A stretch of DNA of 44,619 nucleotides. Source: Symbiobacterium thermophilum. GTDB lineage: Bacteria; Bacillota; Sulfobacillia; DYFQ01. Position 1 is the first letter of the stretch. Each line of letters opens with the position of its first letter. Shown one piece after another: positions 2,330 through 23,004 of the stretch. The stretch is from assembly GCA_020725105.1 (NCBI GenBank), contig DYFQ01000022.1:1-44619 (forward strand). The letters run 5' to 3'. The position numbers were made by a program, and so were the translations under genes. The notes beneath the pieces are model-generated. The model was not told where the DNA came from. It did no database searches and was given only the letters and a program-made list of their open reading frames with translations.

Positions 2330-3475
2330 GTGATCGACTTTGAACTCACCCCGGAGCAGCGCGCCATTCGCGACCTGGCCCGCGAGTTCGTCCGCCGGGA
2401 GATCATCCCCATCGCCGCCGAGTACGACGAGCGGGAGGAGTTTCCCCTTGACGTTGTCGCCAAGGCCCACGAGGTCGGCCTGATGTACCTCCAGGTCCCC
2501 CGGGAGTACGGCGGCCAGGGTCTGGACCACGTCACCGGCGTGCTGGTCAGCGAGGAGATGGCCTACGGCTGTCTGGGCATCAACGGCGGCGTCGGTGGCA
2601 CGGGCCTGGGGCTCACCCCGCTCTTGCTGGCGGGCACCGAGGCGCAGAAGCAGGAACTCCTGCCGCCCCTTTGCGAGCGGGGCGGCCTGGCCGCCTTCTG
2701 CCTGACCGAGGCCCAGGCCGGCTCCGACGTGGCCGCCATCCAGACCGCCGCCCGCCGGGTGGGTGACGAGTACGTCCTGAACGGCACCAAGCGGTTCACC
2801 ACCAACGGCGGCATCGCCGACCTGTACACCGTCTTCGCCTCCGTTGACCGGTCACTGGGCCACAAGGGCCTGGTGGCCCTGATGGTCCCCGGCGACACCC
2901 CCGGTGTCCGGGGTGGCAAGAAGGAGAAGAAGATGGGCGACCGGGCGGCCCACGTGGCCGAGACCGTCTTCGAGGAAGCCCGGGTACCCGTTTCCTACCG
3001 GCTTGGCAACGAGGGCGACGGCTTTCGCATCGCCATGCAGACCCTGGACTACACCAGGCCCGGCGTGGGCGCCTCGGCCGTGGGCGTCGGCCGGCGGGCC
3101 TTCGAGGAGGCCAGGGCCTATGCCACCCAGCGCAAGCAGTTCGGCCGGGCCATCGCCGAGTTCCAGGCCATCCAGTTCGTGCTGGCCGACATGGCCATGT
3201 CTCTGGACGCCGCGAGGCTGCTGGTCTGGCGGGCGGCCCGCCGCCTCGATCAGGGCCGGCCCAGTCCCCTTGAGTCGGCGATGGCCAAGTGCTTCGCCTC
3301 GGACGTGGCCATGCGGGTGACCACCGACGCCGTCCAGATCCTGGGGGGCTACGGCTACATCCGCGAGTACCCCGTCGAGAAGCTGATGCGGGACGCCAAG
3401 ATAACCCAGATCTACGAGGGAACCAACCAGGTCCTCAGGTTGGTCATGGCCCGGCAGTTGCTCAGGCAACTCTGA
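2330..3475 (+). CDS. Acyl-CoA dehydrogenase
   Basis: A 381-residue FAD enzyme, the usual length for this family, that introduces the alpha-beta double bond of an acyl-CoA and passes electrons to ETF. The N-terminal helical domain, the middle strand domain (FCLTEAQAGSD near residue 123) and the C-terminal helical domain (RKQFGRAI; QILGGYGYIREYPVEKLMRD) are all present. The probable catalytic base is Glu363 in the late IYEGTNQ motif, its position in short- and medium-chain types. The GTG start at 2330 follows AAGGAG at good spacing. It is first in the CoA-thioester gene run under the TetR gene. No ETF genes are in the window. Chain-length specificity cannot be read from sequence. Confidence 0.93.
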   Translation: MIDFELTPEQRAIRDLAREFVRREIIPIAAEYDEREEFPLDVVAKAHEVGLMYLQVPREYGGQGLDHVTGVLVSEEMAYGCLGINGGVGGTGLGLTPLLLAGTEAQKQELLPPLCERGGLAAFCLTEAQAGSDVAAIQTAARRVGDEYVLNGTKRFTTNGGIADLYTVFASVDRSLGHKGLVALMVPGDTPGVRGGKKEKKMGDRAAHVAETVFEEARVPVSYRLGNEGDGFRIAMQTLDYTRPGVGASAVGVGRRAFEEARAYATQRKQFGRAIAEFQAIQFVLADMAMSLDAARLLVWRAARRLDQGRPSPLESAMAKCFASDVAMRVTTDAVQILGGYGYIREYPVEKLMRDAKITQIYEGTNQVLRLVMARQLLRQL

Positions 3476-3506
3476 GCGGGCTCCGGGCCGCGGCTCCCGG
3501 CGGGGC

Positions 3507-3527
3507 GTCGGGCCGGCGCGGCCCGAC
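3507..3527 (+). terminator. GC hairpin after the acyl-CoA dehydrogenase
   Basis: Eight perfect base pairs (GTCGGGCC with GGCCCGAC) close a five-base loop, 31 bases after the stop codon. No T run follows, so it may be an mRNA-stabilising or attenuating hairpin rather than a classical terminator. Confidence 0.4.
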
Positions 3528-3572
3528 CCCGGCCGGGCGACCGGCCTGGCGGGACCAGGCGGAGGCTGAGAC

Positions 3573-3896
3573 ATGATCATCGCCGGAGGTTACAACATCT
3601 ACCCCCGGGAAGTGGAGGAGGTGCCCTACGCCCACCCGAGTGTCCGGGAGGCCTGCGTCGCGGGAGTCCCTGAGCCCTACCGGGGCGAAACGGTCAAGGC
3701 CTACGTGGTGATCCGGCCCGGCGGGAACCTGACGGCCGACGAACTCATCGGCTATTGCCGCCAGCACCTGGCCGCCTACAAGGTGCCCCGGCTGCTGGAG
3801 TTCCGGGCGGAACTGCCCAAGTCAGCGGTGGGCAAGGTACTGCGCCGCGAACTGGTGGCCCAGGAACCCCGCCGGGCTCAACGGGAGGCGACGTGA
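3573..3896 (+). pseudogene. Stump of an acyl-CoA synthetase: C-terminal domain only
   Basis: These 107 codons encode only the small C-terminal domain of an AMP-forming acyl-CoA ligase (ANL superfamily, normally 500-550 residues). The match begins inside the A8 hinge motif ([16 protein letters not shown]; even the preceding codon GAC fits the usual Asp) and runs to the A10 motif [13 protein letters not shown] with its catalytic lysine. An in-frame TGA lies immediately before that Asp codon, and the large adenylate-forming domain is absent. GGAGG before the ATG is well placed, so the stump may still be translated. It ends one base into the next gene (TGATG). A deletion remnant is most likely; a free-standing domain protein is the alternative. 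Confidence 0.75.
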
Positions 3897-4771
3897 TGAC
3901 CGCTGACGATATCAAATCGCTGTGCGTGGTGGGGGCCGGCTTCATGGGTAGCCAGATCGCGGCCCAGGCGGCGCTTCACGGCTACCCCGTGGCCAACGTC
4001 GACGTGGACCGGGCCATTCTCGACCGGGCCCGGGAGTCGGTGGCCGGCCACCTCCGGCGGCGCGTGGAGAAGGGGAAGTTGTCCCAGGCCGACTTCGAAG
4101 CCGCCATGGGCCGCATCAGCTACACCACGGATCTGGAGGCGGCCGCCGCCGGCGCCGACTTTGTCGTCGAGGCCGTCATCGAGGATCTGGACGAGAAGAA
4201 GAAGGTCTTTGCCACGCTGGACCGGGTCTGCCCGCCCCACGCCGTCCTGGCCACCAACAGTTCCACCATCGTCAACTCCCTCATCGCCCCGGCCACCCGG
4301 CGGCCGGACAAGGTCATCAACATGCACTTCTTCAGCCCCGCCCTGGTGATGGAACTGGTGGAGGTGGTCATGTCCGAGGCCACCAGCGACGAGACCGCTG
4401 AAGTGACCATGGAACTGGCCCGCCGCATGGGGAAGACCCCGGTGCTCTTGCGCCGCGAGATTTCCGGCTTCGTGGTCAACCGGATCCTGGGCGTGATGAC
4501 GGACGAGGCGCTCAGGCTCTACGAGGCGGGCATCGCCCACTTCAAGGACATCGACATGGCGGTCAAGAAGGGGCTGGGCCATCCCATGGGGCCCTTTCAA
4601 CTGATGGACTTTACCGGCATCGACGTGAACTACCGGGTCAGGATGCAGCGCTACCGGGAGACGGGCGACCCCCAGGACCTGCCGGCCAGGACGGTGCGGG
4701 AGAAGTACGAGAGGGGCGAGTGGGGCCGCAAGAGCGGGCGCGGCTTCTACGACTACCCGAAGCCCGGGTAA
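3896..4771 (+). CDS. 3-hydroxyacyl-CoA (3-hydroxybutyryl-CoA type) dehydrogenase
   Basis: A 291-residue NAD(P)-dependent dehydrogenase interconverting 3-hydroxyacyl-CoA and 3-ketoacyl-CoA. The Rossmann motif GAGFMG is near residue 15. The catalytic Ser region (ATNSSTIV), the His (MHFFSPALVMELVEV) and the conserved Asn (GFVVNRILG) follow in order, and the C-terminal HPMGPFQLMDFTGID and GRKSGRGFYDY motifs are present. The length fits the short monofunctional enzymes of the 3-hydroxybutyryl-CoA dehydrogenase group. ATG 3896 overlaps the previous stop by one base and follows GGGAGG, so it is preferred over upstream in-frame codons. The neighbours (acyl-CoA dehydrogenase and an AbfD-like protein) suggest a C4-type CoA pathway. 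Confidence 0.92.
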   Translation: MTADDIKSLCVVGAGFMGSQIAAQAALHGYPVANVDVDRAILDRARESVAGHLRRRVEKGKLSQADFEAAMGRISYTTDLEAAAAGADFVVEAVIEDLDEKKKVFATLDRVCPPHAVLATNSSTIVNSLIAPATRRPDKVINMHFFSPALVMELVEVVMSEATSDETAEVTMELARRMGKTPVLLRREISGFVVNRILGVMTDEALRLYEAGIAHFKDIDMAVKKGLGHPMGPFQLMDFTGIDVNYRVRMQRYRETGDPQDLPARTVREKYERGEWGRKSGRGFYDYPKPG

Positions 4772-4855
4772 CCGTCGCCGAACCCGCCGCCACCGCGGGC
4801 CCGGCCGGCCGGCGGAGCGGGCCCGGGCCGGCCAGAAGAGGAGAGGAGGCCAGCC

Positions 4856-6349
4856 ATGGCCCTGAGAAGCCCTGACGCCTACCGGCAAAGCCTCAAGGAC
4901 GGCCGGCGGGTCATCCGCCACGGCCTGGAGGTGCCGGACGTCACCCAGGACCCGCTCCTGCGGCACGCGGTGGACAACACCGCCGTGGACTTCTGGATGG
5001 CCGAAGCGCCGGAATACCGGGACCTGGCGGTGGTGGAAGACGAGACCGCCGGCCCGGTCAGCCGGTACCTGGTGCCGCCCCGGACGGCGGAAGACCTGGC
5101 GCGGCGCCGGGAACTCATCGAGGTGGGGAGCCGTCTATGCCGCGGGTTCCCGCCCTTTGCCAAGGAGATCGGTACCGACGCCCTCTTCGCGCTCATGACC
5201 ATCGCGCCCCGGGTGGACGAGGCCTGCGGGACGGACTACACCCGGCGGGTGGAGGAATTCCGCCAGTACCTGATGGCCACGGACCCGGCCATGGCCACCG
5301 CCATGACCGACGTCAAGGGCGACCGCAGTCTCCGGCCCCACCAGCAGGCGGACCCCGACCTCTACGCGCGCGTGGTGGACAGGCGGGCCGACGGCATCGT
5401 TATCCGGGGGGCCAAGATCCACATCACCAACGCCCCCGTGGCCAACGAGCTGATGGTGCTGCCGACCCGGGCCATGACCGAGGCCGACGCCGCCTACGCG
5501 GTGGCCTGCGCCGTGCCGGCCAACGCCCCCGGGGTCACGATGGTGGTCCGCTCCACGGTGACGGTACCCCCGAATCCCTTTGACTACCCACTCAGGGCGC
5601 GGCACGACTTCGCCGAGGCCCTCATCCTGTTCGACGACGTGTTCGTCCCTCACGAGCGTGTCTTTCTCAACGGCGAGTGGCCCTTTGCCGGACCGCTGGC
5701 CAACACCTTCGCCGTTTGGCACCGGATGACGGCCGCCGCCTACAAGATCGCGTCTGCCGAGCTCCTGGCCGGCTCGGCGCAACTGGTAGCCGAGTACAAC
5801 GGGCTGGAGCGGTCGCCCATCGTGCGGGATAAGGTCACCTCGGTGGTCATCTACTGCGAGACGCTGAAGGCGCTCAACCGGATGACGGCCGAGCACCCCC
5901 ACCTTGACCCCGTCTCGGGGATCGCCACGCCCAACCCGCTGTACTCGAACCTGACCAAGTACTACTTCGCCGAGGGCTACCACAACGCCGTGCGTCAGGT
6001 GCAGGACGTGGCCGGAGGGCTCCTGGTCACCGGGCCGTCCGAGGCCGACCTGAACCACCCCGAGGTGGGGGAGGCCGTGGCCCGGGCGCTGCAGGGCAAG
6101 GCTGGGGTGTCCGGCCCGGAGCGGCTGCGGCTCATGAACTTCATCCGCGACCTGGCCGCCTCGGAACTGGGCGGCGGGTGGGAAGTGGTGTCCATTCACG
6201 CCGAGGGGACCCTGGCGGTGCTTAGGCTGACCCTTCACGCCCAGGCGGAGCTGGACACCTACAAGCAACTGGTCCGGGAGGCGGCGGGCCTGGTACCCGC
6301 TTCCTCGCCCGCCGGGGCGGCCCACCGGGGCGCCGGCGGGGCCGGGTGA
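4856..6349 (+). CDS. 4-hydroxybutyryl-CoA dehydratase/HpaB-like protein lacking cluster ligands
   Basis: A 497-residue protein that aligns along its length with 4-hydroxybutyryl-CoA dehydratase (AbfD) and more distantly with the flavin monooxygenase HpaB; all share the acyl-CoA dehydrogenase fold. Shared blocks include AMTDVKGDRSLRP, GIVIRGAKIHIT, AMTEADAAYAV and DVAGGLLVTGPSEAD. In the clostridial AbfD, Cys99, Cys103, His292 and Cys299 hold a [4Fe-4S] cluster. Here the first pair falls in GFPPFAKEIG (residues 97-106, no cysteine; nearest is Cys95), His is kept at 289, and Tyr296 takes the place of Cys299. A genuine dehydratase is thus unlikely; a flavin-only isomerase or monooxygenase is possible. 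The ATG start follows GAGAGGAGG. The last 15 or so residues are Gly/Ala-rich. Confidence 0.75.
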   Translation: MALRSPDAYRQSLKDGRRVIRHGLEVPDVTQDPLLRHAVDNTAVDFWMAEAPEYRDLAVVEDETAGPVSRYLVPPRTAEDLARRRELIEVGSRLCRGFPPFAKEIGTDALFALMTIAPRVDEACGTDYTRRVEEFRQYLMATDPAMATAMTDVKGDRSLRPHQQADPDLYARVVDRRADGIVIRGAKIHITNAPVANELMVLPTRAMTEADAAYAVACAVPANAPGVTMVVRSTVTVPPNPFDYPLRARHDFAEALILFDDVFVPHERVFLNGEWPFAGPLANTFAVWHRMTAAAYKIASAELLAGSAQLVAEYNGLERSPIVRDKVTSVVIYCETLKALNRMTAEHPHLDPVSGIATPNPLYSNLTKYYFAEGYHNAVRQVQDVAGGLLVTGPSEADLNHPEVGEAVARALQGKAGVSGPERLRLMNFIRDLAASELGGGWEVVSIHAEGTLAVLRLTLHAQAELDTYKQLVREAAGLVPASSPAGAAHRGAGGAG

Positions 6350-7309: not shown

Positions 7310-8617
7310 ATGGCCACGCACGGGAGGTGGCTGGGGCTGAGCCTGGCGCTGGCCCTGGCCGCGGCGGCCCTCCTTCCGGGCTGCCAGCGGGAGCCGGTGG
7401 AGATCGTCGTCTGGGACGGCCCCCGCTGGCCCGACGAGAACAACGACCAGTTTCACTGGCTCCGTGGCCGGATCCAGGCCTTCAGCCAGCGCCACCCCGA
7501 CGTGAGGGTCCGGCTGGTCGAAAAACCCTGGGGCGATCTGGTTCAGCTGGTGGACCTGGCCGCCGGCGCCGGGGCGCTGCCCGACGTCGCTCCCCTGGAG
7601 CCGGCCGGCGGGGCCCTGGTCAGGTGGGTTGAGGCGGGCCTGCTGGAGCCGGTCGACGAGTACCTGGCGGCGCCGGAAGACCTGACCCCCGGGGCGCTGG
7701 CCGCCTTCAGCCACCAGGGGCGGACCTATGGCTTTCCCACCGCCCAGGCGGTTCACGTCCTGTTGCTGAACCGTGACCTCTTCGCCGAACGGGGAGTGCC
7801 CCTTCCGCCCGGCGGCCGCTGGTCCTGGGAAGAATTCCGCCGGGCCGCCGTGGAGTTGACCTTTGACCGGAACGAGGACGGGGCCATCGACGTCTATGGT
7901 CTTGCCGGCGCCGTACTGAAGGGCTTTTACGAGTTGTGGCCCTTCCTCTACATGGACGGGGCGCGGCCCCTGGCCGAGAACATGCGGCGGTGCGCCTTCA
8001 ACCGGCCCGAGGGCGTGTCGGCCCTGCAGAAACTGGTCGACCTGGTTCACCTGGACCGGGCCGCCCACCCGGACACGGGGACCTCTGACGTGGGTCACGT
8101 CTTCCGGCTGTTCGCCCTGGCCGGCGAGGCGTCCGTCGCCATGGCCCCGTGGGCCCCCTGGGCCATCGCCGCCATCCAGACCCGGGACCCCTTCCGGATC
8201 AACGTGGCGGTGGCCGAGTACCCGTACGGGGATAGCGGCGAGCCGGTGACCATCGGCGCCGCGAGCGGCTGGGTCGTGTTCAGGCAGGCGGATGCCCGCA
8301 AGAAGCGGCTGGTGATGGAGCTTGCCAACTTCCTTTCGGACACTGACGCCCACTACGCTTTCGCCACCCGGTACGGCACCTTCCCGGCCCGCCGGTCCGC
8401 GCTGTCAAGAGAACCCTTCGGGGGCAACCCCGTCCTGGCCAGGGTGGCCGCCATGGTGGAACTGGCCGAACCTCCCCCCAACCACGCCGAGTGGGACCGG
8501 CTGGAGGAGATCTTCCAGCACTACATCCAGCGTGCCCTCACCGGCGAACTGGCTCCCCGAGCGGCGCTGGACGCCGCCTGCCAGGAGGTGGACCGTGTCC
8601 TGGGCGGAGGTCGCTGA
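7310..8617 (+). CDS. Family 1 extracellular solute-binding lipoprotein (sugar type)
   Basis: A 435-residue ABC importer receptor. A signal peptide with a hydrophobic stretch ends at lipobox LLPGC (Cys25), predicting a lipid-anchored exported protein. The body has the layout of sugar-binding proteins: an early VEIVVWDG strand, LPDVAPLEP, an EF-hand-like loop DRNEDGAIDVYG (near residue 185) and a late GWVVF block. The ATG start follows GGGAGG overlapping the previous stop. No permease or ATPase is adjacent, so it must share components encoded elsewhere or act as an orphan receptor. With the wall glycosidase and MurNAc enzymes following, an amino-sugar or muropeptide sugar ligand is a reasonable inference. 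Confidence 0.88.
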   Translation: MATHGRWLGLSLALALAAAALLPGCQREPVEIVVWDGPRWPDENNDQFHWLRGRIQAFSQRHPDVRVRLVEKPWGDLVQLVDLAAGAGALPDVAPLEPAGGALVRWVEAGLLEPVDEYLAAPEDLTPGALAAFSHQGRTYGFPTAQAVHVLLLNRDLFAERGVPLPPGGRWSWEEFRRAAVELTFDRNEDGAIDVYGLAGAVLKGFYELWPFLYMDGARPLAENMRRCAFNRPEGVSALQKLVDLVHLDRAAHPDTGTSDVGHVFRLFALAGEASVAMAPWAPWAIAAIQTRDPFRINVAVAEYPYGDSGEPVTIGAASGWVVFRQADARKKRLVMELANFLSDTDAHYAFATRYGTFPARRSALSREPFGGNPVLARVAAMVELAEPPPNHAEWDRLEEIFQHYIQRALTGELAPRAALDAACQEVDRVLGGGR

Positions 8618-8662: not shown

Positions 8663-10582
8663 GTGATGGCGGCGGGGCGAGGGGTTGGAGGCCACGGCGG
8701 GCGCCTGGTGGCGGCCACGCTGGCCCTGACGTTGGCGGCCACCCTGGGGATGCTCGCCTGCCGGCGGGCGCCGGCCGGCCCGGCCGTGACGGGAGCGCCC
8801 GGTGCCGTTCCCGGCTCGGAAGTGGCGGAGCGGGACCCGGCAGGGGGGGATCCCGTCCCGGGGGAGCCGGGCGGGGGGAATCCCGTGGCGGAGGCTGAGG
8901 TGGAGGCCCTGCTGGGGGCCATGAGCCTGGAGCAGAAGGTCGGGCAACTGTTCGTCACGGGGTTCCGCGGCCGGTCCGCCGCCGACGACCCAAACCTCCG
9001 CCGGTTCCTGACGGAGGGCCGGTTCGGCGGAATCATCCTCTTCGACGCCAACGTGGAGTCACCGGCCCAGGTCGCCCGGCTGGTGGCCCAGGCCCAGGCC
9101 ATGGCGCGGGGCGTCGAGGGCGGCGTTCCCCTCCTGGTCGCCGTGGACCAGGAAGGCGGCAGCGTCGCCCGGCTGGTGGCGGGCGCCACGGTCTTTCCGG
9201 GCGCCATGGCGCTGGGCGCCATCTACGCGGCGGACGCCGCCGCCGGCGTCCGGGCGGCGTACGAGGCTGCCCGGTGGACCGCCCGGGAACTGAGAGCGGT
9301 GGGGGTCAACCTGAACCTGGCCCCGGTGGCCGACGTGAACAGTGACCCCCGCAACCCCGTGATCGGCGCCCGGTCGTTCGGAGAAGACCCGGGGCTCGTG
9401 GCCCGGCTGGTGCAAGCCTTCGTGCGGGGGACCCAGGACGAGGGGGTCCTGGCCACGGCCAAGCACTTTCCCGGCCACGGCGACACCGCCGTCGACTCCC
9501 ACCTGGCCCTGCCGGCCATTCCCCACGCCCGCCGGCGGCTGGAAGCGGTGGAACTGGTCCCCTTCCGGGCCGCCATCGAGGCCGGGGTGGCGGCGGTCAT
9601 GTCGGGCCACATCACCTTCCCGGCCCTGGAACCCGAACCCGGGCTGCCGGCCACCCTGTCCAGGCGGATCATGACCGGTTTGCTCCGCGAGGAACTGGGT
9701 TTCGGGGGCCTGGCGGTGACCGACGCCATGGAGATGCGGGCTATCACCGACCATCTCGGGCGCTATGACGCGGCCTGGAGGGCTGTCGCGGCCGGCGCCG
9801 ACCTGGTGCTGTTCGCCGGTGACGCCGACCTGGTCTGGGGGAGCTACCGGCGGGCGCTGGAGGCCGTACGGGCGGGAGAACTTCCCCTTGCCAGGGTGGA
9901 GGAGGCGGCCGGGCGGGTGCTCGGGGCCAAGTTCCGCCTCGGCCTGTTCGAGGTGGTTCCCGACCCGGAGGCGGCGGCCGCCCGGGCCCGGGAGGCGGTC
10001 GGAACGGTCGAGGCCCGCCGGGCGGCGGAGACCATGTACCGGCAGAGCGTGACCCTGGTACGGGACGACCGCGGGCTGGTGCCCCTGGCCCCTCAGCCAG
10101 GTCAGAAGGTGCTGGTGGTGGCCCCGGCCGTGACCGCCCTGGCGGAGCCTGATCCGGCCACCGGCCACCGGTCGTCGCTGGCCGCGGCGGTGACCGCCCA
10201 CCATCCGGGGACACGGGAGTACGTCTACCCGTCGGCCGCGCCCCGCGAGCACCGCGACGCGGTCCGGGCCCTGGCGGCCCAGGTGGACGTCGTGGTCGTC
10301 GCCACCTGCAACGCCCACCTGAATCCGGACCAGGCCGCCCTGGTCCGCGAACTCCTGGCCACCGGCAGGCCGGTGGCGGTGATCGCCCTGGGTGATCCCT
10401 ACGACCTGCTGGCCTTTGAGGCGGCGCCGCTGTATCTGGTCACCTACGGTCACCGGCCGGCGGCCGTGGCCGCCGCGGTGGACGTTCTCTTCGGCGCCGA
10501 ACCGGCCCGCGGCCGGCTGCCGGTGAGCCTGCCCGGGCTGGCCCCGGCCGGCCATGGCCTGCCCGGCGAAGGAGGGAGCTAG
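8663..10582 (+). CDS. nagZ: Exported GH3 beta-N-acetylglucosaminidase (NagZ type)
   Basis: A 639-residue glycoside hydrolase family 3 enzyme that removes GlcNAc from peptidoglycan fragments. An N-terminal hydrophobic segment ends in MLAC (Cys34), a plausible but imperfect lipobox. A Gly/Pro-rich linker follows, then the catalytic barrel with VAVDQEGG, KHFPGHGDT followed by DSH (the Asp-His general-acid loop that marks NagZ enzymes) and the nucleophile Asp354 in VTDAMEM. A second alpha/beta domain fills residues 460-630, as in Bacillus NagZ. The start is GTG 8663 or the next codon ATG 8666; no clear ribosome site separates them. It precedes the kinase-MurQ gene, the same partnership as in Gram-positive MurNAc recycling. 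Confidence 0.9.
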   Translation: MMAAGRGVGGHGGRLVAATLALTLAATLGMLACRRAPAGPAVTGAPGAVPGSEVAERDPAGGDPVPGEPGGGNPVAEAEVEALLGAMSLEQKVGQLFVTGFRGRSAADDPNLRRFLTEGRFGGIILFDANVESPAQVARLVAQAQAMARGVEGGVPLLVAVDQEGGSVARLVAGATVFPGAMALGAIYAADAAAGVRAAYEAARWTARELRAVGVNLNLAPVADVNSDPRNPVIGARSFGEDPGLVARLVQAFVRGTQDEGVLATAKHFPGHGDTAVDSHLALPAIPHARRRLEAVELVPFRAAIEAGVAAVMSGHITFPALEPEPGLPATLSRRIMTGLLREELGFGGLAVTDAMEMRAITDHLGRYDAAWRAVAAGADLVLFAGDADLVWGSYRRALEAVRAGELPLARVEEAAGRVLGAKFRLGLFEVVPDPEAAAARAREAVGTVEARRAAETMYRQSVTLVRDDRGLVPLAPQPGQKVLVVAPAVTALAEPDPATGHRSSLAAAVTAHHPGTREYVYPSAAPREHRDAVRALAAQVDVVVVATCNAHLNPDQAALVRELLATGRPVAVIALGDPYDLLAFEAAPLYLVTYGHRPAAVAAAVDVLFGAEPARGRLPVSLPGLAPAGHGLPGEGGS

Positions 10583-10665: not shown

Positions 10666-12573
10666 ATGGCGGTGGTCCTGGGGGTCGACGGCGGCGGGAC
10701 CAAGACGGTGGCCCTGCTGGCCGATGAGGCGGGCCGGCCGCTGGCGCAGGCCACGGGCGGCCCCACCAACCACTACGCCGTGGGCCCGGAACGGGCCGGC
10801 GACGCGCTGCGGGCGATCGTCCGCCGGGTCCTGGGAGCGGCAGGGCTGTCCCCAACCGAGGTGGCCTGCGCCGTCCTGGGCATGGCCGGCGTGGACCGGC
10901 CCGACGACGTCCAACAGGTCTGCGACTGGGTCCGGCCCCTCGGCCTCGGGGGCACGCTGGTCGTGGAAAACGACGCCGTCATTGCCCTGGCCGGCGCCAC
11001 GCTGGGCCGTCCCGGGGTGGTGGTCGTGGCCGGCACCGGGTCCGTTGCCTTCGGCGTGAACGCCCGCGGCGAGCGGCGGCGGGCCGGTGGCTACGGCCAC
11101 CTGGTCGGTGACGAGGGTTCGGGCTTCGCCATCGGACGGGCCGCCCTGGCGGCGGTGCTGCGGGCCCACGACGGCCGGGGACCCGCCACCCGCCTGACAG
11201 AGCTCTTGCTGAGCGCCCTGGGGGTCATCGACGCGGCCGGGCTGATGGGCCGCGTGTATTACGGCATGGAACGCCGCGACATCGCCGCCCTGGCGCCACT
11301 GGTTGCCGAAGCGGCCCGCTCGGGGGACGGGGTTGCCGCCGGGATCCTGGCCGAGGCCGGCCACGAACTGGGGCTGGCCGCCCGGGCGGTCATCGCCGGC
11401 CTGGGCCTGCGGGCCGACGCCTTCGAGGTGGCGGCGGCGGGCGGCGTCTTCAAGGCCGGCAGCCCCGTCCTGGACCCGTTCACGCGGGTCGTGACCGCCG
11501 CCGCGCCCCGCGCCGCGGTGATCCGCCCCCGCTACCCCCCGGCGGTGGGGGCCGTCATCCTGGGCCTGCGGTGCCTGAATGTCGATCCGGCCGGGCTGGA
11601 CCTGAGTTCTCTGACCGCCGAGCCCGCCTCCGAGGTGGGGCCGACCGAGGCCGTGGCTCGGCCCGGCGCCCCCGCTGACCTGGATCTGATGTCCCTGCCC
11701 GACCTCCTGGCGCGCCTGCTGGCCGCCGAAGCGCGGGTCCCGGCCGCCGTCGGCGCGAGCCTCGATGACCTGGCCAGCGCCGTCGAGCGCCTGGTGGCAG
11801 CCATCGAGGGAGGCGGCCGGGTGTTCTACGTGGGCGCCGGCACCAGCGGGAGGCTGGGGGCGCTGGACGCGACCGAACTGCCACCGACCTTCGGCGTACC
11901 TGCCGCCTGGTTCCAGGCGGTGGTGGCCGGGGGCCGGCGGGCCCTCTGGCGGTCGGTGGAGGGCGCCGAGGACGACGAGGCTGCCGGAGAACGCGACCTG
12001 GCGGCCAGGGGAGTCGGGCCGGGCGATGCGGTGGTGGGCCTCTCGGCCAGCGGCCGGACGCCCTACACCCTGGGCGCCCTGGCCCACGCGCGCCGGGCCG
12101 GGGCGACTACCGTGGCCGTGACCACCACTCCCGGCTCGCCCCTGGCCCGCCTGGCCGACGTCTGTGTCTGCCCGGCGGTCGGACCCGAAGAGGTCGAGGG
12201 CTCGACCCGGTTGTCGGCGGGCACGGCCGAGAAGGTGGTTCTCAACCTCTTGAGCACCGCGACCATGGCCCGGCTGGGCCGGGTGTACGGCAACCTGATG
12301 GTGAGTCTGGAGGCGCGCAACTCGAAGCTCCGGGCCCGGGCCGTGGAGGTGGTCGGCCGCATCGCCGGGGTCGGACTCCGGGAGGCCGAGGCCACCCTGC
12401 AACGGTGCGGCTGGCAGCCCGCGACGGCCGTGCTCATGCTGCGCCTGGGCCTGGAGGCCGCCGCCGCCCGGCGGCGGCTCAGGGCGGCGGGGGGCTCCTT
12501 GCGTCGCGCCCTGGGCGGGGCCGGCCCCGGCGTGACCGACCAGGGCCCGGTCGCCCCGGGCCCCCCTTCTTGA
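10666..12573 (+). CDS. Amino-sugar kinase fused to MurNAc-6-phosphate etherase (MurK-MurQ type)
   Basis: A 635-residue two-domain protein. Residues 1-305 are a BadF/BcrA-type sugar kinase with phosphate loop DGGGTKT (8-14) and VAGTGS (122-127), the family of GlcNAc kinase and of clostridial MurK, which phosphorylates MurNAc and GlcNAc. Residues 325-635 are MurQ, with VGAGTSGRLGALDATELPP (catalytic Glu404) and SVEGAEDDE (Glu435), a SIS fold and a C-terminal helical tail. MurQ removes D-lactate from MurNAc-6-P to give GlcNAc-6-P, so one chain could do both steps. ATG 10666 follows GGTGGGGGTGAGG; the frame is open back to GTG 10582, but that extension is not conserved-looking. No stop or frameshift separates the halves. 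Confidence 0.9.
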   Translation: MAVVLGVDGGGTKTVALLADEAGRPLAQATGGPTNHYAVGPERAGDALRAIVRRVLGAAGLSPTEVACAVLGMAGVDRPDDVQQVCDWVRPLGLGGTLVVENDAVIALAGATLGRPGVVVVAGTGSVAFGVNARGERRRAGGYGHLVGDEGSGFAIGRAALAAVLRAHDGRGPATRLTELLLSALGVIDAAGLMGRVYYGMERRDIAALAPLVAEAARSGDGVAAGILAEAGHELGLAARAVIAGLGLRADAFEVAAAGGVFKAGSPVLDPFTRVVTAAAPRAAVIRPRYPPAVGAVILGLRCLNVDPAGLDLSSLTAEPASEVGPTEAVARPGAPADLDLMSLPDLLARLLAAEARVPAAVGASLDDLASAVERLVAAIEGGGRVFYVGAGTSGRLGALDATELPPTFGVPAAWFQAVVAGGRRALWRSVEGAEDDEAAGERDLAARGVGPGDAVVGLSASGRTPYTLGALAHARRAGATTVAVTTTPGSPLARLADVCVCPAVGPEEVEGSTRLSAGTAEKVVLNLLSTATMARLGRVYGNLMVSLEARNSKLRARAVEVVGRIAGVGLREAEATLQRCGWQPATAVLMLRLGLEAAAARRRLRAAGGSLRRALGGAGPGVTDQGPVAPGPPS

Positions 12574-12726
12574 GGGCATACCTGCAGTCTCAAGTTCCAC
12601 TTCACCCGCCGGCGGCAGGAAGGCCGCCGTGTGCCGCCGAATGCCCACCAGAGGCCGGGGAGGACGGGGTGCGGGCCCGGCGCCCCCGGCCGCCACATTT
12701 CGCGTGCCGTCCAGGGAGGGGATACC

Positions 12727-13647
12727 TTGCGCAACCGCGGGGCGTGGTGGCGGGCGGCGGCATTGCTCCTGGCCGGAGTGCTCCTGCTGAGCGGGCTGGC
12801 GCTCGCCGGCTGCCAGCGGAAGGAGGCCGCCGAGGTTCCGAAGGAACTGGTCATCGGGTTCGTGCCGTCGGTGGAGGCCGAGAAGATCCCGGAGAAGGTC
12901 GCGCCCCTGGCGGAGATGCTCTCGAAGGAACTCGGCATTCCGGTCAAGCACTTCACCTCGGCGAACTTCGCCGGCCTGGTGGAGGCCATGGGCGCCAAGA
13001 AGGTGGACGTGGGCTGGCTGAACCCCCTCGGCTACGTGCTGGCCCGTGACACGCACGGCGTTGAGGTCATCTTGAAGTCCGTCCGCCGCGGCTCGGTCTC
13101 CTACAAGGCCCAGATCGTGGTCCGGGCCGACAGTGGCATCAACAAGCTCGCCGACCTCAAGGGCAAGAAGTTCGGCTTCGTCGACCCCGGCTCCACATCG
13201 GGCTACCTGTTCCCGGCGGCCCACCTGAAGAAGAACAACATGAACCCCGAGAAGGACTTCTCGGAGGTCGTCTTCCTGGGTGGCCACGACAAGGTGATCA
13301 CCGCCGTCTACAACGGCGACGTGGACGCCGGCGCCACCTTCGCCGACGCCAGGGCCCGGGTGGAGAAGACCTTCCCCGACGTGATGCAGAAGGTCAGGAT
13401 TCTGGAGTACACCGGCGACATCCCCAACGACACCGTGTCCGTCCGCAAGGGGCTTGACCCGGCCTTTGTGGAGCAGGTCAAGCAGGCGCTCATAAAGATC
13501 GCCTCGTCCGAGGAAGGCAAGAGGATCTTCTTTGACCTCTACCAGTGGGACGGCGTCGCCGAGGCCAAGGACTCCGACTTTGACATCATCCGTGAGACGG
13601 CCAAGCTGATGAACCTGGACATCAAGAAGGAGCTGGGCGGCGGCTGA
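12727..13647 (+). CDS. phnD: Phosphonate/phosphite ABC transporter substrate-binding lipoprotein
   Basis: 306 residues from TTG 12727, chosen because AGGGAGGGG lies just before it and the signal peptide then begins properly. A hydrophobic core ends at LALAGC (Cys29), so it is a lipoprotein. The mature protein begins KELVIGFVPS and has the PhnD signatures KVDVGWLNPLGYV, DLKGKKFGFVDPGSTSGYLFP and GGHDKVITAVYNGDVDAGATF. It delivers phosphonate, phosphite or a related oxyanion to the PhnE permeases encoded next. No C-P lyase or phosphonatase is in the window, so the actual ligand is open. Confidence 0.93.
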   Translation: MRNRGAWWRAAALLLAGVLLLSGLALAGCQRKEAAEVPKELVIGFVPSVEAEKIPEKVAPLAEMLSKELGIPVKHFTSANFAGLVEAMGAKKVDVGWLNPLGYVLARDTHGVEVILKSVRRGSVSYKAQIVVRADSGINKLADLKGKKFGFVDPGSTSGYLFPAAHLKKNNMNPEKDFSEVVFLGGHDKVITAVYNGDVDAGATFADARARVEKTFPDVMQKVRILEYTGDIPNDTVSVRKGLDPAFVEQVKQALIKIASSEEGKRIFFDLYQWDGVAEAKDSDFDIIRETAKLMNLDIKKELGGG

Positions 13648-13718
13648 GCCACGCCTCGGCCGGCGGCGGACCGTGACGACCGGCGGCCGGAGGGCCTGCC
13701 CCGCCGATGTCTGGACGT

Positions 13719-13752
13719 CCCCGGGGGAGGGGGCCGGCTCCCTCTCCCCGGG
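13719..13752 (+). promoter_or_regulatory. Stem-loop between phnD and phnC
   Basis: A long, slightly imperfect GC hairpin pairs the C4G5AG5CC-type left arm with a CTCCCTCTCCCCGGG-type right arm. It lies between the binding-protein gene and the ATPase gene. Such hairpins commonly protect the upstream message or cut downstream expression so that binding protein exceeds transporter. No T run follows. Confidence 0.45.
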
Positions 13753-13773
13753 TGCCGTCAGAGGAGACCCGGC

Positions 13774-14550
13774 GTGATCGAGTTCAAGAAGGTGAGCAAG
13801 GAGTTTCCCGGCGGCGTCCAGGCCCTGCGCGACGTGTCCCTCAAGATCGCCGACGGCGAGTTCGTGGTCATCGTTGGCCTTTCGGGAGCCGGTAAGTCCA
13901 CGCTCCTGCGGTGCCTCAACCGGCTGGTGGAACCCACCTCCGGCGAGATCTGGGTGGACGGCGAGGAGATCACCCGGCTGCCCCCGGCCGAGCTGCGGCG
14001 GGTGCGCACCAAGATCGGGATGATCTTCCAGACCTTCAACCTGGTGCGGCGGTCTACCGTCCTCAAGAACGTCCTGGCCGGACGCCTGGGCCACAGCCCC
14101 ACCTGGCGGGGCCTGCTGGGGCTGTTCACCCCCCGGGACCTGGAGCTTGCCTTCCGGAGCCTGGAACGCCTGGAGATCCTGGACAAAGCCTTCGTCCGGG
14201 CCGACCAGCTTTCCGGCGGCCAGCAGCAGCGGGTGGGCATCGCCCGCGCCCTGACCCAGGAACCCAAGGTCATCCTGGCCGACGAGCCCGTGGCGAGCCT
14301 GGACCCGCCTACCTCCCACATGGTCATGCGGGACCTGCGCCGCATAAACCAGGAAGACGGCATCACCACCCTGGTGAACCTGCACTTCATCGACCTGGCC
14401 AGGGAGTACGGCCGGCGCATCGTGGGCCTGCGGCAGGGCCGGGTGGTCTATGATGGTCCAGCGGACCAGGTGGACGAGAAGACCTTCGAACAGATCTACG
14501 GGCGGCCTATCCGCGCGGAAGACCTGCGCGAGGCCGCCCGACCTGCCTAG
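13774..14550 (+). CDS. phnC: Phosphonate/phosphite ABC transporter ATPase
   Basis: 258 residues with every ABC ATPase element: Walker A GLSGAGKST (near 35-43), Q-loop in MIFQTFNLV, signature LSGGQQQR, Walker B VILADEP and an H-loop His in LHFIDLA. The insert LKNVLAGRLGHSPTWRGLLGLF is typical of PhnC. It powers the PhnE channels at the cytoplasmic face. The GTG start follows GAGGAG. It is directly followed by the first permease gene with no gap. Confidence 0.95.
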   Translation: MIEFKKVSKEFPGGVQALRDVSLKIADGEFVVIVGLSGAGKSTLLRCLNRLVEPTSGEIWVDGEEITRLPPAELRRVRTKIGMIFQTFNLVRRSTVLKNVLAGRLGHSPTWRGLLGLFTPRDLELAFRSLERLEILDKAFVRADQLSGGQQQRVGIARALTQEPKVILADEPVASLDPPTSHMVMRDLRRINQEDGITTLVNLHFIDLAREYGRRIVGLRQGRVVYDGPADQVDEKTFEQIYGRPIRAEDLREAARPA

Positions 14551-15354
14551 GTGGGCCCTGTGACCTCCGGCTCCGGCGCCCGGCCGCTGCCCAGGCCCCC
14601 GGCCAAAGGACCCGTCACCCTGGCGGCACTGGGGATGGTCGTGCTCTACATCTGGGCCCTGCGCCGGACCGACGTGAGCCCCGTGGACTTCTTCTGGGGC
14701 ATTCCGGACATGGCCGACCTCTTCCGGCGGATGTGGCCCCCGGTGTGGAGTTACATCCCGGAGATGGTAGGTCCCCTGCTGGAGACCGTCCAGATCGCCA
14801 TCCTCGGGACCACCCTGGGGGCAGTGGCGGCCGCGCCCATCAGCGTCCTGGCCGCCCGCAACGTGAGCCGGGTCCGCGCGGTGTACCTGGTGGCGCGGAC
14901 CGTGCTGAACGTGATCCGGACCTTGCCCGACCTGTTGCTGGCGGCGGTGTTCGCCATCGCCGTGGGCATCGGCGCCCTTCCCGGCGTGATGGCGCTGGCG
15001 GTCTTCTCCTTCGGCATCATCGCCAAGCTCACGAGCGAGACGGTGGAGGCCATCGACCCCGGACCGCTGGAGGCGTTGCAGGCCACGGGGGCCAACCGGA
15101 GCCTCATGGTCCACTACGCCGTGGTCCCCCAGGTGCTGCCCCAGTTCGTGGCCTACTGCCTCTACGTCTTCGAGATCAACATCCGGGTGGCCACGGTGCT
15201 GGGGCTGGTGGGCGCGGGCGGCATCGGCATGTGGCTGTACCGGGACATCAACCTCCTGCGGTACAAGTACGCGGCGGCCATCATCCTGGCGGTGTTCCTG
15301 GTGGTGGTCATCATCGACGCCGTCAGCACCCGGCTGCGGGAGCGACTGATTTGA
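14551..15354 (+). CDS. phnE: Phosphonate/phosphite ABC transporter permease, first copy
   Basis: 267 residues and about six membrane segments, with the BPD_transp_1 EAA-type loop EALQATGANRSLMVHYAVVPQVLP that contacts the ATPase. It belongs to the PhnE family. GTG 14551 abuts the stop codon of phnC; GTG 14560 is an alternative start. It is closely related to the next gene, and the two probably form a heterodimeric channel. Confidence 0.92.
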   Translation: MGPVTSGSGARPLPRPPAKGPVTLAALGMVVLYIWALRRTDVSPVDFFWGIPDMADLFRRMWPPVWSYIPEMVGPLLETVQIAILGTTLGAVAAAPISVLAARNVSRVRAVYLVARTVLNVIRTLPDLLLAAVFAIAVGIGALPGVMALAVFSFGIIAKLTSETVEAIDPGPLEALQATGANRSLMVHYAVVPQVLPQFVAYCLYVFEINIRVATVLGLVGAGGIGMWLYRDINLLRYKYAAAIILAVFLVVVIIDAVSTRLRERLI

Positions 15355-16208
15355 ACCCGCCACGGGCTACGGGTCAAGGAACGGCGGGCGCCACGACCCA
15401 GGCCCCCGGACAGGGTCCGGGACCGCGGTCGCCCCGGTACTCCCACTGGTGGCTGGCCCGTCAGGCCGGTGTCGCCGTCCTGGTGGTCCTGGTCTACTGG
15501 TGGGCGTCGGCCGGCATCGAGTTCAACGTGGACCGGCTGCTCCGGGGCCTGGGGCAACTGTGGACCATCACCCGCCAGATGTTCTACCAGCCCGGGCCTG
15601 ACTGGAACTACTTCCCCACCGTCTTCGAGGGCCTGGTGGAGAGCTTCAACATCGCGCTCCTGGGGACGACCCTTGCCGCCGTGCTGGCCATCCCCTTCGG
15701 CTTTCTGGCCGCCACCAACCTGGCCGGCCGGACCGGGGCGGCCGTGGGCAAGCTGTGTCTCAACGCCATCCGGGCCTTTCCCGAACTCTTGCTGGCCATC
15801 GTCTTCATGCGGGGCGTGGGACCGGGGGCGTTCGCCGGTATCCTGGCCATCGGCATCCATTCCATCGGCATGCTGGGCAAGCTCTACGCCGAGGTCGTGG
15901 AGGCCATCGACCGGCAGCCAGTGGAGGCGCTGCAGGCGGCCGGCGCCAACCGCCTGCTGACGGCGTGGTACGCCATCGTGCCCCAGGTGTTGCCGGACTT
16001 TGCCTCCTACGCCATCTACCGCTTCGAGATCAACGTGCGGGCCGCGACGGTGGTGGGCCTGGTGGGGGCGGGCGGCATCGGCAAGTCGCTCTACTTCCAG
16101 TTGCTCGCCTGGGACTGGTCCAAGGTCGGGCTGATCCTCCTGAGCATCATCGTCGCGGTGAGCGTCGTCGACTACCTGTCGGCCACCATCCGGAGCCGCA
16201 TCGTCTGA
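15351..16208 (+). CDS. phnE: Phosphonate/phosphite ABC transporter permease, second copy
   Basis: 285 residues from TTG 15351, which overlaps the previous stop as TTGA, with GGGAG seven bases upstream; translational coupling is likely. A longer open frame runs back through the first permease but is out of frame with it and not protein-like. About 28 polar N-terminal residues precede the membrane segments. The EAA loop EALQAAGANRLLTAWYAIVPQVLP and the ending GLVGAGGIGKSLYF match the first permease. Paired PhnE genes are a recurring arrangement in phosphonate and phosphite importers. Confidence 0.92.
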   Translation: MNPPRATGQGTAGATTQAPGQGPGPRSPRYSHWWLARQAGVAVLVVLVYWWASAGIEFNVDRLLRGLGQLWTITRQMFYQPGPDWNYFPTVFEGLVESFNIALLGTTLAAVLAIPFGFLAATNLAGRTGAAVGKLCLNAIRAFPELLLAIVFMRGVGPGAFAGILAIGIHSIGMLGKLYAEVVEAIDRQPVEALQAAGANRLLTAWYAIVPQVLPDFASYAIYRFEINVRAATVVGLVGAGGIGKSLYFQLLAWDWSKVGLILLSIIVAVSVVDYLSATIRSRIV

Positions 16209-16373
16209 CTCCGGTCCGATGTCCTCCCCCGACCGGCCCGCCGGGATGCAGCCACCGCCGCACCGGCAGGGATGGGTGGCCCGGCCGGGCGAATCTCCCG
16301 GCAAACGGATCCGGGAGGTGACGGTGTCTTGTCCGGACGCCTTCACCCCACGGCGGGAGGAGTACAGGCGGCC

Positions 16374-17408
16374 GTGAGGGCCCCGTCGGCGGGCGACGGG
16401 CGGCGGAGCCCGGGGGGCGCGGCGCCCAGGCCCCCGCGGCGGGAACGGGTGCTGCTCTACCACCCGAACCCGGAGCGGACTCAGGAACTGGCAGGGCTGG
16501 TCCGGGAGAAAGTGCGGCGGGTGGACCTGGTCACCGCCTCCACTCCACAGGCGGCCCGCCCACTGGTGGCCGGGGCCGAGATCATCCTGGGCTGGCGCTT
16601 TCCCGTGGACCTGCTGGGCGAGGCCACGCGGCTCCGGTGGTTCCAGCAGTTGGGCGCCGGGGTGGACGACCTGGTCGGCCCGGAGGTGCCGTGGCCGGCC
16701 GGCGCCGTGCTCACCCGGGTGACCGGTGTGTTCGGCCCCTGGATCGCCGAGTACGTCCTGGGGCACCTGCTGGCCCAGGGCCAGCGCGTGCCTCAGGTGC
16801 TGGCCGCCCGGGCGCGCCGGGCCTGGGAGCCGTTCATTCCTGAGCGGCTGGCAGGCAAGACGATGGCCATTGCGGGGCTGGGAGACATCGGGCTGGCCAT
16901 CGCCCGGCGGGCTCGGGCGTTCGGCATGACCGTCATCGGGCTCCGGCGCCGGGCCGTCGCTGCCGGCCGGCGCGCGGCCGGGGTCGTCGGGGTGAAGCGC
17001 GTGTACGGGCTCGACGCCTGGCCGGCGATGTTGTCGGACGCGGACGTGCTGGTGCTCACCCTGCCGCTGACTCCCGAGACCCGAGGCCTGGTGGACGCCG
17101 CCGCGTTCCGCCGGCTGAAGCCCGGGGCCTGGCTGGTCAACGTGGGCCGCGGGGCGGTCCTAGAAGAACAGGCGCTCCTGGAGGCGCTGGGCAGCCGCCG
17201 GCTGGGCGGCGCCGTCCTCGACGTCTTCTGGCAGGAACCCCTGCCGGCCGAGCACCCCCTGTGGTCGCTCCCCAACGTCGTCATCACCCCCCACGTCTCC
17301 GGTCCCAGCGTGGCGCCGGACATGGCGCGGGTGTTCGCCCGGAACCTGAAACGTTTCCGGGCCGGCCGGCCGCTGCTGGGCCTGGTAGACCGGGCAAAGG
17401 GGTATTAG
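16374..17408 (+). CDS. D-2-hydroxyacid dehydrogenase
   Basis: About 344 residues from GTG 16374, preceded by GGGAGGAG at slightly long spacing. The NAD-binding motif is GLGDIG. The three catalytic residues of the family are visible in order: Arg in NVGRGAVLEE, Glu in DVFWQEPLP and His in TPHVSGPS. Such enzymes reduce 2-keto acids (glyoxylate, hydroxypyruvate, pyruvate) to D-2-hydroxy acids. A low-complexity Pro/Arg stretch precedes the folded part (about residues 1-22). It is followed 19 bases later by two nitrilase-superfamily genes, so a role in processing keto acids from amide or nitrogen metabolism is possible but unproven. Confidence 0.88.
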   Translation: MRAPSAGDGRRSPGGAAPRPPRRERVLLYHPNPERTQELAGLVREKVRRVDLVTASTPQAARPLVAGAEIILGWRFPVDLLGEATRLRWFQQLGAGVDDLVGPEVPWPAGAVLTRVTGVFGPWIAEYVLGHLLAQGQRVPQVLAARARRAWEPFIPERLAGKTMAIAGLGDIGLAIARRARAFGMTVIGLRRRAVAAGRRAAGVVGVKRVYGLDAWPAMLSDADVLVLTLPLTPETRGLVDAAAFRRLKPGAWLVNVGRGAVLEEQALLEALGSRRLGGAVLDVFWQEPLPAEHPLWSLPNVVITPHVSGPSVAPDMARVFARNLKRFRAGRPLLGLVDRAKGY

Positions 17409-20746: not shown

Positions 20747-21934
20747 ATGGCAGGCCTCCGATACGACCTGGTGATCCACAACGGCACCGTGCTGGAACCG
20801 GCCGGACCGGTCCGCGGCTGGCTGGCCGTCGACGGTGAGCGCCTGGCCGCCTCCGGCCAGGGCCGGCCGCCCGAAGCCCGGGCGCGGCTGGACGCCCGCG
20901 GGGGGATCGTGGCGCCGGGCTTTGTCGACCTGCACTGCCACGGCGCCGGCGGCGTCGACGTCCTGACCGCTTCCGAGGCAGACCTGCTGGCCCTGGCGCG
21001 CCTGTTGCCGCGCTTTGGGGTCACGGCCTTTTGCCCCACCCTGCCGAGCGCCTCCCACGAGGCTCTCCTCACGGCACTGGGCCGGATATCCCGGGCCCGT
21101 GCCGTGACCCGCGCGGGCGCCAGGTTGCTGGGGGTTCACCTGGAAGGACCTTACCTCAACCCGGCCCGGCAGGGTGCCCAGGACCCGGCTGCCCTGCGCC
21201 CGCCCAGCCGGCACGAGCTGGAAATCCTGCTGGCGGCGGCCGGCGGCCCCGCCGAAGGCCTGGCCCTGGTCACCCTGGCGCCGGAACTCCCGGGGATGGC
21301 GGAGTTGATCCCCTGGTTATGCCGGGCGGGGGTCCGGGTGGCCATCGGGCACTCCGACGCGACCTACCGGCAGGTCCGCCAGGCGGTCCGCCTGGGCGCC
21401 ACTCACGTGGTTCACTGTTTCAACGCCATGCGCGGCCTGCACCACCGGGAGCCCGGGGTGGCCGGGGCCGCCCTGGTACTGGACCAGCTGACCGTCGAGG
21501 TCATCGCCGACGGCATCCACCTTCACCCGGCCGTGGTGGACCTGGTGGTGCGGGCCAGAGGTCCGGCCGGGGTGGCTCTCGTGACCGACGCCACCGCCGC
21601 GGCGGGACTGGGGGACGGGCGCTACCGCCTGGGAGACCGGCCGGTCGTGGTGTCCGGTGGCGTCGCCCGGACAGTCGCCGGCGTCCTGGCCGGCAGTACC
21701 CTCACCATGGACCGGGCGGTCCGGAACGCGAGGCGCTACGCCCGGGTCGACTGGGCGGCGGCCGTCCAGATGGCGGCGACCACCCCGGCCCGGGTGCTGG
21801 GGATGGAAGACCGGGCGGGATGCCTGGCTCCCGGCCGCCCGGCCGACGTGGTCGTGCTGGACCGGTGGGGACGGGTCCGGGCCACACTGGTGGGAGGCGC
21901 GCTGGTATACTCCAACGGGGTCCAAGCGCCGTGA
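20747..21934 (+). CDS. nagA: N-acetylglucosamine-6-phosphate deacetylase
   Basis: 395 residues, normal for NagA, which hydrolyses GlcNAc-6-P to GlcN-6-P and acetate. The amidohydrolase motifs appear in order: DLHCHG, HLEGPYLN, AIGHSDA, HCFNAM followed by LHHREPG, IADGIHLHP, and the catalytic Asp281 in VTDATAAAG. ATG 20747 follows GAAGGGGG. The stop overlaps the nagB start (GTGA), so the two are translationally coupled. It receives GlcNAc-6-P from the kinase-MurQ fusion encoded 8 kb upstream and from imported GlcNAc. Confidence 0.95.
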   Translation: MAGLRYDLVIHNGTVLEPAGPVRGWLAVDGERLAASGQGRPPEARARLDARGGIVAPGFVDLHCHGAGGVDVLTASEADLLALARLLPRFGVTAFCPTLPSASHEALLTALGRISRARAVTRAGARLLGVHLEGPYLNPARQGAQDPAALRPPSRHELEILLAAAGGPAEGLALVTLAPELPGMAELIPWLCRAGVRVAIGHSDATYRQVRQAVRLGATHVVHCFNAMRGLHHREPGVAGAALVLDQLTVEVIADGIHLHPAVVDLVVRARGPAGVALVTDATAAAGLGDGRYRLGDRPVVVSGGVARTVAGVLAGSTLTMDRAVRNARRYARVDWAAAVQMAATTPARVLGMEDRAGCLAPGRPADVVVLDRWGRVRATLVGGALVYSNGVQAP

Positions 21935-23004
21935 CGGTCCTGGTGGTCCCCGGCTACGACCTGTTGAGCGCCCTGGCGGCCCGGGCCGTCGCGGAGCTCG
22001 CCCGGCGCCGGAAGGACCTGGTGGTAGCCCTTCCCACCGGCCGGACGCCGCTGGGTCTGTACCGGCGGCTGGCCGCGGCCAGGACCGAGGGGGCCGTGGA
22101 TTTGCGAGCCGCGAGGGTCTTCGGCCTCGACGAATACCTCGGGCTTTCCCCCGACCATCCCGCCGCCGCGGCCCGGACCTTTCGCGAGTTGATCGTGCCG
22201 TCGCTGGGGCTGGACCCTCGCCGGGTCCGGCCCGTGGACGGGCTGGCCGCGGACCCCGCCGCCGAAGCCGCGCGGGTGGAGGAGGCCATCCGGGCGGCGG
22301 GGGGCCTTGACCTGGTGGTGCTGGGCATCGGTCGAAACGGCCACGTCGGGCTGAACGAGCCCGGATCGGCCCGGGACAGCCGGACCCGGGTGGTGTCGGT
22401 GGCCCCCGAGAGCCGGGCCGCGCTGGCCGGCGCCTCTGGCGCCAGGGCGCCGGCGGTGCCCCAGCGTGGCATCACCCTGGGTGTGGCGACGATCCTGGAA
22501 GCCCGGCGGGTGCTCTTGCTGGCGTCGGGGCGCGAGAAGGCCGAGATCCTGCGCCGGGCCGTGGAAGAGCCCCCGACCCCGGCCGTCCCGGCCAGCTTCT
22601 TGCAGGAGCACCCGGCCGCCCTGGTCGTGGCCGACGCGGCGGCCGCCGCCGGCCTGCGGGGTCAGTACCCCCGCATCGACTCCCTGGACGCCGCCGGGGC
22701 CGCCGGGTGGCCCGGGGCGTGGCTCGCCGGGGACGGTGGCGCGACGACTCCAGCGGAGCTGTCGCCCGCCGGCTGGACGGTGGTGCACCACGCCGTCGAT
22801 CCCGTCGCCGCGGCAGTGGTCCGGGGGCTGCTAGAAGCCCACGGTATCCCCGCCGTGCTCGAGTCCGACGCGGCCCCGTCGGTTCACCCTTTCGGCGTGG
22901 GACCGCTGGCGTCGGTGAGGGTGCGGGTGCGTGCGCGGGACATCGGGGCTGCCCGGGCCTTGCTCCGGGGGATTGAGCCGCCGGGGCTCCCGAACGGCCG
23001 CTGA
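21931..23004 (+). CDS. nagB: Glucosamine-6-phosphate deaminase with added DUF2007-like C-terminal domain
   Basis: 357 residues; ordinary NagB is 240-265. Residues 1-245 are the deaminase, with PTGRTPLGLYRRL, GLDEYLG (catalytic Asp67) and GIGRNGHVGLNEPGS (His138, Glu143). It converts GlcN-6-P to fructose-6-P and ammonia. A linker (246-278) leads to an extra domain (280-346) with the DUF2007 pattern: WTVVHHAVDP, then RGLLEAHGIPAVLES, then VRVRARDIGAARALL. That small ferredoxin-like domain is of unknown, probably regulatory or ligand-sensing, function. GTG 21931 overlaps the nagA stop; the frame is open further upstream, but that stretch is not protein-like. I see no frameshift between the two parts. 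Confidence 0.88.
   Translation: MTVLVVPGYDLLSALAARAVAELARRRKDLVVALPTGRTPLGLYRRLAAARTEGAVDLRAARVFGLDEYLGLSPDHPAAAARTFRELIVPSLGLDPRRVRPVDGLAADPAAEAARVEEAIRAAGGLDLVVLGIGRNGHVGLNEPGSARDSRTRVVSVAPESRAALAGASGARAPAVPQRGITLGVATILEARRVLLLASGREKAEILRRAVEEPPTPAVPASFLQEHPAALVVADAAAAAGLRGQYPRIDSLDAAGAAGWPGAWLAGDGGATTPAELSPAGWTVVHHAVDPVAAAVVRGLLEAHGIPAVLESDAAPSVHPFGVGPLASVRVRVRARDIGAARALLRGIEPPGLPNGR

Follow-up and report, generated by a model that had tools for sequence, protein, structure and literature searches.

In the stretch of DNA analysed here (the window; 44,619 nucleotides of contig DYFQ01000022.1 in the Symbiobacterium thermophilum assembly GCA_020725105.1), a single gene encodes a BadF-type sugar kinase and a complete N-acetylmuramic acid 6-phosphate (MurNAc-6-P) etherase (MurQ) on one polypeptide. 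It is a real two-enzyme protein and, judged by its relatives, most likely a MurNAc/GlcNAc kinase joined to a MurNAc-6-P etherase. As the best explanation we propose, with a probability of about 0.8, a bifunctional cytosolic salvage enzyme whose halves would fold independently on either side of a linker of ~30 residues and which would feed NagA and NagB. The N-terminal kinase would phosphorylate MurNAc (and GlcNAc) at O-6, with D103 serving as the base, and the C-terminal SIS-fold etherase would release the lactyl group from MurNAc-6-P via E404 and E435, giving GlcNAc-6-P and D-lactate; the net reaction would thus be MurNAc + ATP → GlcNAc-6-P + D-lactate, with GlcNAc-6-P passing through NagA and NagB to central metabolism. 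This two-step route from MurNAc to GlcNAc-6-P, already proposed in a first-pass annotation of the same DNA, has good support from the sequence, the predicted fold and the genes nearby, from which we infer substrate, activities and physiological role. If true, a single natural protein would take MurNAc to GlcNAc-6-P and be useful as a tool enzyme.

Table 1. Features of the window that bear on murein-sugar salvage
Feature	Position	Strand	Remarks
Sugar ABC transporter substrate-binding lipoprotein	7310..8617	+	upstream of NagZ and the fusion
NagZ-type GH3 β-N-acetylhexosaminidase, lipoprotein-like signal	8663..10582	+	directly upstream of the fusion
Kinase-MurQ fusion gene	10666..12573	+	635 aa; ATG start, GGTGAGG upstream
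BadF-family half, most likely MurNAc/GlcNAc kinase	10666..11580	+	residues 1-305; Pfam PF01869; best PDB match 8zo3
Linker	11581..11670	+	residues 306-335; low predicted confidence
MurQ half	11671..12516	+	residues 336-617; NCBIfam NF003915; PDB 4s12/4lzj
NagA, GlcNAc-6-P deacetylase	20747..21934	+	TIGR00221 288 bits, cut-off 226
NagB-like GlcN-6-P deaminase, C-terminal DUF2007	21937..23004	+	PF09413, 34 bits

That kinase and complete etherase share one frame, as the first-pass annotation had stated, is confirmed by translation, Pfam and NCBIfam. The frame is uninterrupted and its sole stop is terminal; the domain search that had been suggested as a check places the Pfam model BcrAD_BadFG (PF01869) at residues 5-300 (151.8 bits, full model length 1-271/271) and the MurQ models of NCBIfam at residues 335-617. 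In NCBIfam, no bifunctional model recognises the fusion protein, and the scores come from the two halves only. An alternative in-frame GTG lies upstream at position 10,582, but the ATG at 10,666 is favoured, since homology begins at residue 1-3 and the GGTGAGG motif precedes this codon. In the AlphaFold2 model (55 relatives; pTM 0.72) the mean pLDDT is 92.9; both halves are well folded, and confidence is low only at about 311-340, in the linker region, and at about 618-635, among the last residues.

The kinase half has the BadF/NAGK fold together with the DGGGT motif, present as the phosphate motif DGGGTKT, and the catalytic Asp; this residue, D103 (10972-10974), is the catalytic base of the family and invariant in 98/98 homologues, and all 23 conserved kinase columns are retained in the alignment. 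The best solved relative is Clostridium acetobutylicum MurK (8zo3; 35% identity over 299 residues; Foldseek TM 0.93), which is alike in fold, catalytic Asp, phosphate motifs and sugar-site residues, but is a stand-alone protein, whereas the window kinase is fused to MurQ. Further solved relatives by sequence are the S. tokodaii hexokinase and human NAGK. In the kinase tree, the window clusters with kinases that mostly adjoin MurQ, while C. acetobutylicum MurK is found elsewhere, behind weakly supported deep branches. The closest relative of the window kinase half that was found (47-49% identity) is the downstream BadF kinase of two loci (L205 and L206, from G1118 and G1093), in which MurQ is flanked on each side by different BadF kinases.

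Within the BadF-type family, sequence alone cannot split MurNAc from GlcNAc kinases, and the kinase half could be mainly a GlcNAc (or glucose-type) kinase. The fusion would then tie together two steps that each deliver GlcNAc-6-P, with MurNAc-6-P coming from elsewhere, e.g., from a PTS. Such a reading would agree with the family's GlcNAc kinases and a hexokinase matching at 27-32% identity, with a GlcNAc kinase being the nearest NCBIfam model (scored under its cut-off), and with Asn102 directly before D103, a residue type linked to glucose-type kinases in a paper that also discusses the kinase positions for MurNAc recognition (PMC10465942). We consider it quite unlikely, however, because C. 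acetobutylicum MurK, the closest solved relative, takes both sugars with the same Asn, no other kinase of such a type was found in the genome, and the recurrent joining with MurQ speaks for MurNAc as the substrate. At the positions for MurNAc recognition, the window kinase and C. acetobutylicum MurK match (VVENDA/IVVNDA, AGVD/AGAD and RAGGYGHLVGDEG/RSGGWGHIIGDEG), and, by comparison with the published positions (PMC10465942), there is no bulky Glu or His at the lactyl-facing position. Given that Asn102 occurs in glucose-type kinases and in C. acetobutylicum MurK alike, our best guess is a dual MurNAc/GlcNAc kinase; read in such a way, the fusion protein probably serves GlcNAc as well, converting it to GlcNAc-6-P.

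The MurQ half is recognised by NF003915 (344 bits, cut-off 168) and NF009222 (316 bits, cut-off 255), while the equivalog model TIGR00274 scores 287 bits, slightly below its cut-off of 302; Pfam SIS/GKRP domains lie at residues 365-528. Both catalytic Glu residues named in the first-pass annotation, E404 (11875-11877) and E435 (11968-11970; VEGAE motif), are in place, 31 residues apart and invariant in 194/194 homologues. Solved relatives by sequence are 4s12, 4lzj and 1nri, with Foldseek TM values of 0.95-0.96 against 4s12/4lzj. The enzymes from Haemophilus (4lzj/4m0d) and Yersinia (4s12) have the fold and both catalytic Glu residues in common with the MurQ half (41-47% identity); they are, however, stand-alone proteins, whereas in the window a kinase and a linker come before MurQ. 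A further difference is Ser517 in place of Lys/Arg, one of only two departures (I501V and K517S) from 70 highly conserved columns, of which 68 are kept. Since 192/194 homologues carry Lys or Arg at this near-invariant basic position, the substitution could alter the etherase activity.

A frameshift between the halves, which the first-pass annotation had named as a finding that would overturn the fusion, has left no sign in the window DNA: codon-position GC (50-codon steps; ~0.8-0.9/0.54-0.6/0.86-0.92 over codons 276-400) continues unchanged at the junction. The opposite strand is open across the region too, as is common at 72% GC, and nothing points to coding there. The possibility that an assembly or sequencing artefact has joined two neighbouring genes draws on the draft state of the assembly (73 contigs, the window having 72% GC) and on related lineages, in which both genes often share a frame with a single stop codon between them, so that one wrong base would be enough for a false fusion. 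It is nonetheless highly improbable in view of the continuous coding signal, of a linker length of 35 (within the 29-47 range of the fused proteins from other phyla), of the fact that no Shine-Dalgarno-like site was seen ahead of the GTG codons in the linker at which a separate MurQ might start, and of a second fused member of the class (G012).

Adjacent kinase, MurQ and NagZ genes occur across the window's class. The class includes Candidatus Fermentithermobacillus (family f5; G085 and CP062796.1 have the same coordinates), and in several genomes of this family a single stop codon separates the kinase gene from an in-frame MurQ. Conserved readthrough of this stop was considered and rejected: it is TGA, TAG or TAA, depending on the genome, and MurQ has its own start codons there, which makes ordinary neighbouring genes the more likely arrangement.

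Regarding its distribution, a reading of the fusion as exceptional is not supported. In C. acetobutylicum, MurK and MurQ are separate proteins. That annotation was right in regarding them as separate in characterised systems, as exemplified by the murTKQ operon of T. forsythia, where MurK and MurQ are likewise separate proteins (PMC10465942); this operon has the same two steps, kinase then etherase, and their genetic linkage in common with the fusion, but its MurK is less closely related to the window kinase (fold-match identity about 20%). The genome count that had been suggested reveals the same fusion in several phyla, making it recurrent and not unique. Kinase and MurQ lie in one frame in 2/154 genomes of the window's class (the window and G012), in at least 23/388 genomes of Verrucomicrobiota and in at least 2/299 of Pseudomonadota, while no match across both halves was obtained in a sample of 299 Bacillota genomes. 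In Hydrogenedentota, the fusion is the commonest state, with about 42/68 genomes having one match across both halves and 15/15 fetched loci in that search being single frames. Since scoring was limited to the best candidates of each genome, these figures are minimum values. Four further candidates with equal open-frame values (G004, G101, G088 and G1084) were discarded on account of stops between the halves in the DNA. In Hydrogenedentota and Verrucomicrobiota, the one-frame proteins (e.g., L040, L099 and L036) have the same domain order and a similar length and linker; in contrast to these likenesses, they have a separate origin on the kinase tree, and scores of their kinase halves against that of the window reach only about 50-110 bits.

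The fused state has to change six times on the kinase tree (at least four changes being forced by well-supported branches) and seven times on the MurQ tree (at least three forced). For the kinase half, an AU test rejects a single origin of all kinase-MurQ fusions (p = 0.00014); a single origin for the window and G012 only is not rejected (p = 0.42). By this sequence comparison, the join arose several separate times in unrelated bacteria, which argues for a real and recurrent rather than a unique arrangement. In the literature searched, no description of a kinase-MurQ fusion was found, many subscription papers being outside its reach; the join appears to be undescribed there, yet widespread in public genomes, and its parts are known. 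Kinase/MurQ-like fusion proteins may already be on record from fungi or protists. If the proposed function is true, the fusion could be used to recognise murein salvage in the genomes of uncultured phyla.

The first-pass annotation had further held that the fusion would channel MurNAc-6-P directly. Selection for channelling, through a tunnel or facing active sites, would add to the bifunctional salvage enzyme rather than replace it, and the several independent origins would be in keeping with it. These are, however, explained equally well by co-expression or equal dosage, and the linker is predicted to be flexible, the AlphaFold2 model giving no evidence of a fixed interface (pTM 0.72). A flexible linker of ~30 residues does not show a tunnel; the claim is not supported, and we regard channelling as the driving force as unlikely.

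NagZ and a sugar-binding lipoprotein precede the fusion gene, and NagA and NagB follow 8 kb downstream; no ABC permease genes lie next to that of the sugar-binding protein. The genome holds only one MurQ and only one BadF-type kinase of such a kind, both in the fusion; no AnmK was found in it, and its PF00144 (β-lactamase/AmiE-type) matches are four strong and one partial. This setting fits a cell that salvages GlcNAc and MurNAc set free outside the cell. The NagB-like deaminase with its DUF2007 domain is another join within the same salvage set.

MurQ is joined to other neighbours as well. In family f5, its C-terminus is fused to a PF00144 AmiE-like domain; the arrangement occurs in families f5, f40 and f42 (L003, L004, L006, L008, L025, L112, L113, L115-L121, L123, L125 and L127-L133), where a kinase gene immediately precedes the fused gene and, at loci for which the DNA read extends far enough, NagZ immediately follows it. 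No obvious signal peptide is present at the N-termini of the NagZ proteins looked at (L032, L129, L117 and L118), and the sequences suggest cytosolic processing by NagZ at these loci. In G1084 (L215:3185-5722), MurQ and a GH3 NagZ form one frame of 846 residues, preceded in the same frame by a kinase gene and one stop codon. Taken together, the kinase, AmiE-like and NagZ joins show that MurQ is recurrently fused to salvage enzymes of its neighbourhood. That MurQ is a fusion hub of murein-sugar salvage, with the kinase upstream and AmiE-like or NagZ domains downstream, because kinase-etherase coupling keeps free MurNAc-6-P low, the intermediate being perhaps harmful or signalling, is a speculative and rather doubtful idea; the repeated origin of the fusion lets the question of whether free MurNAc-6-P is worth avoiding be tested directly.

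The interval from the fusion to NagA holds, among other genes, a phosphonate/phosphite-type ABC cluster (12631-16208) and a 2-hydroxyacid dehydrogenase. The order of a PhnD-PhnC-PhnE-PhnE type transporter and then the dehydrogenase (12631-17408) recalls phosphite-oxidation clusters; the dehydrogenase at 16,272 was rejected as a phosphite dehydrogenase, with no such named relative in the 60 best of 146 PDB matches. At 2330-6349, genes for an acyl-CoA dehydrogenase, a 3-hydroxyacyl-CoA dehydrogenase and an HpaB/4-hydroxybutyryl-CoA dehydratase-like protein follow one another.
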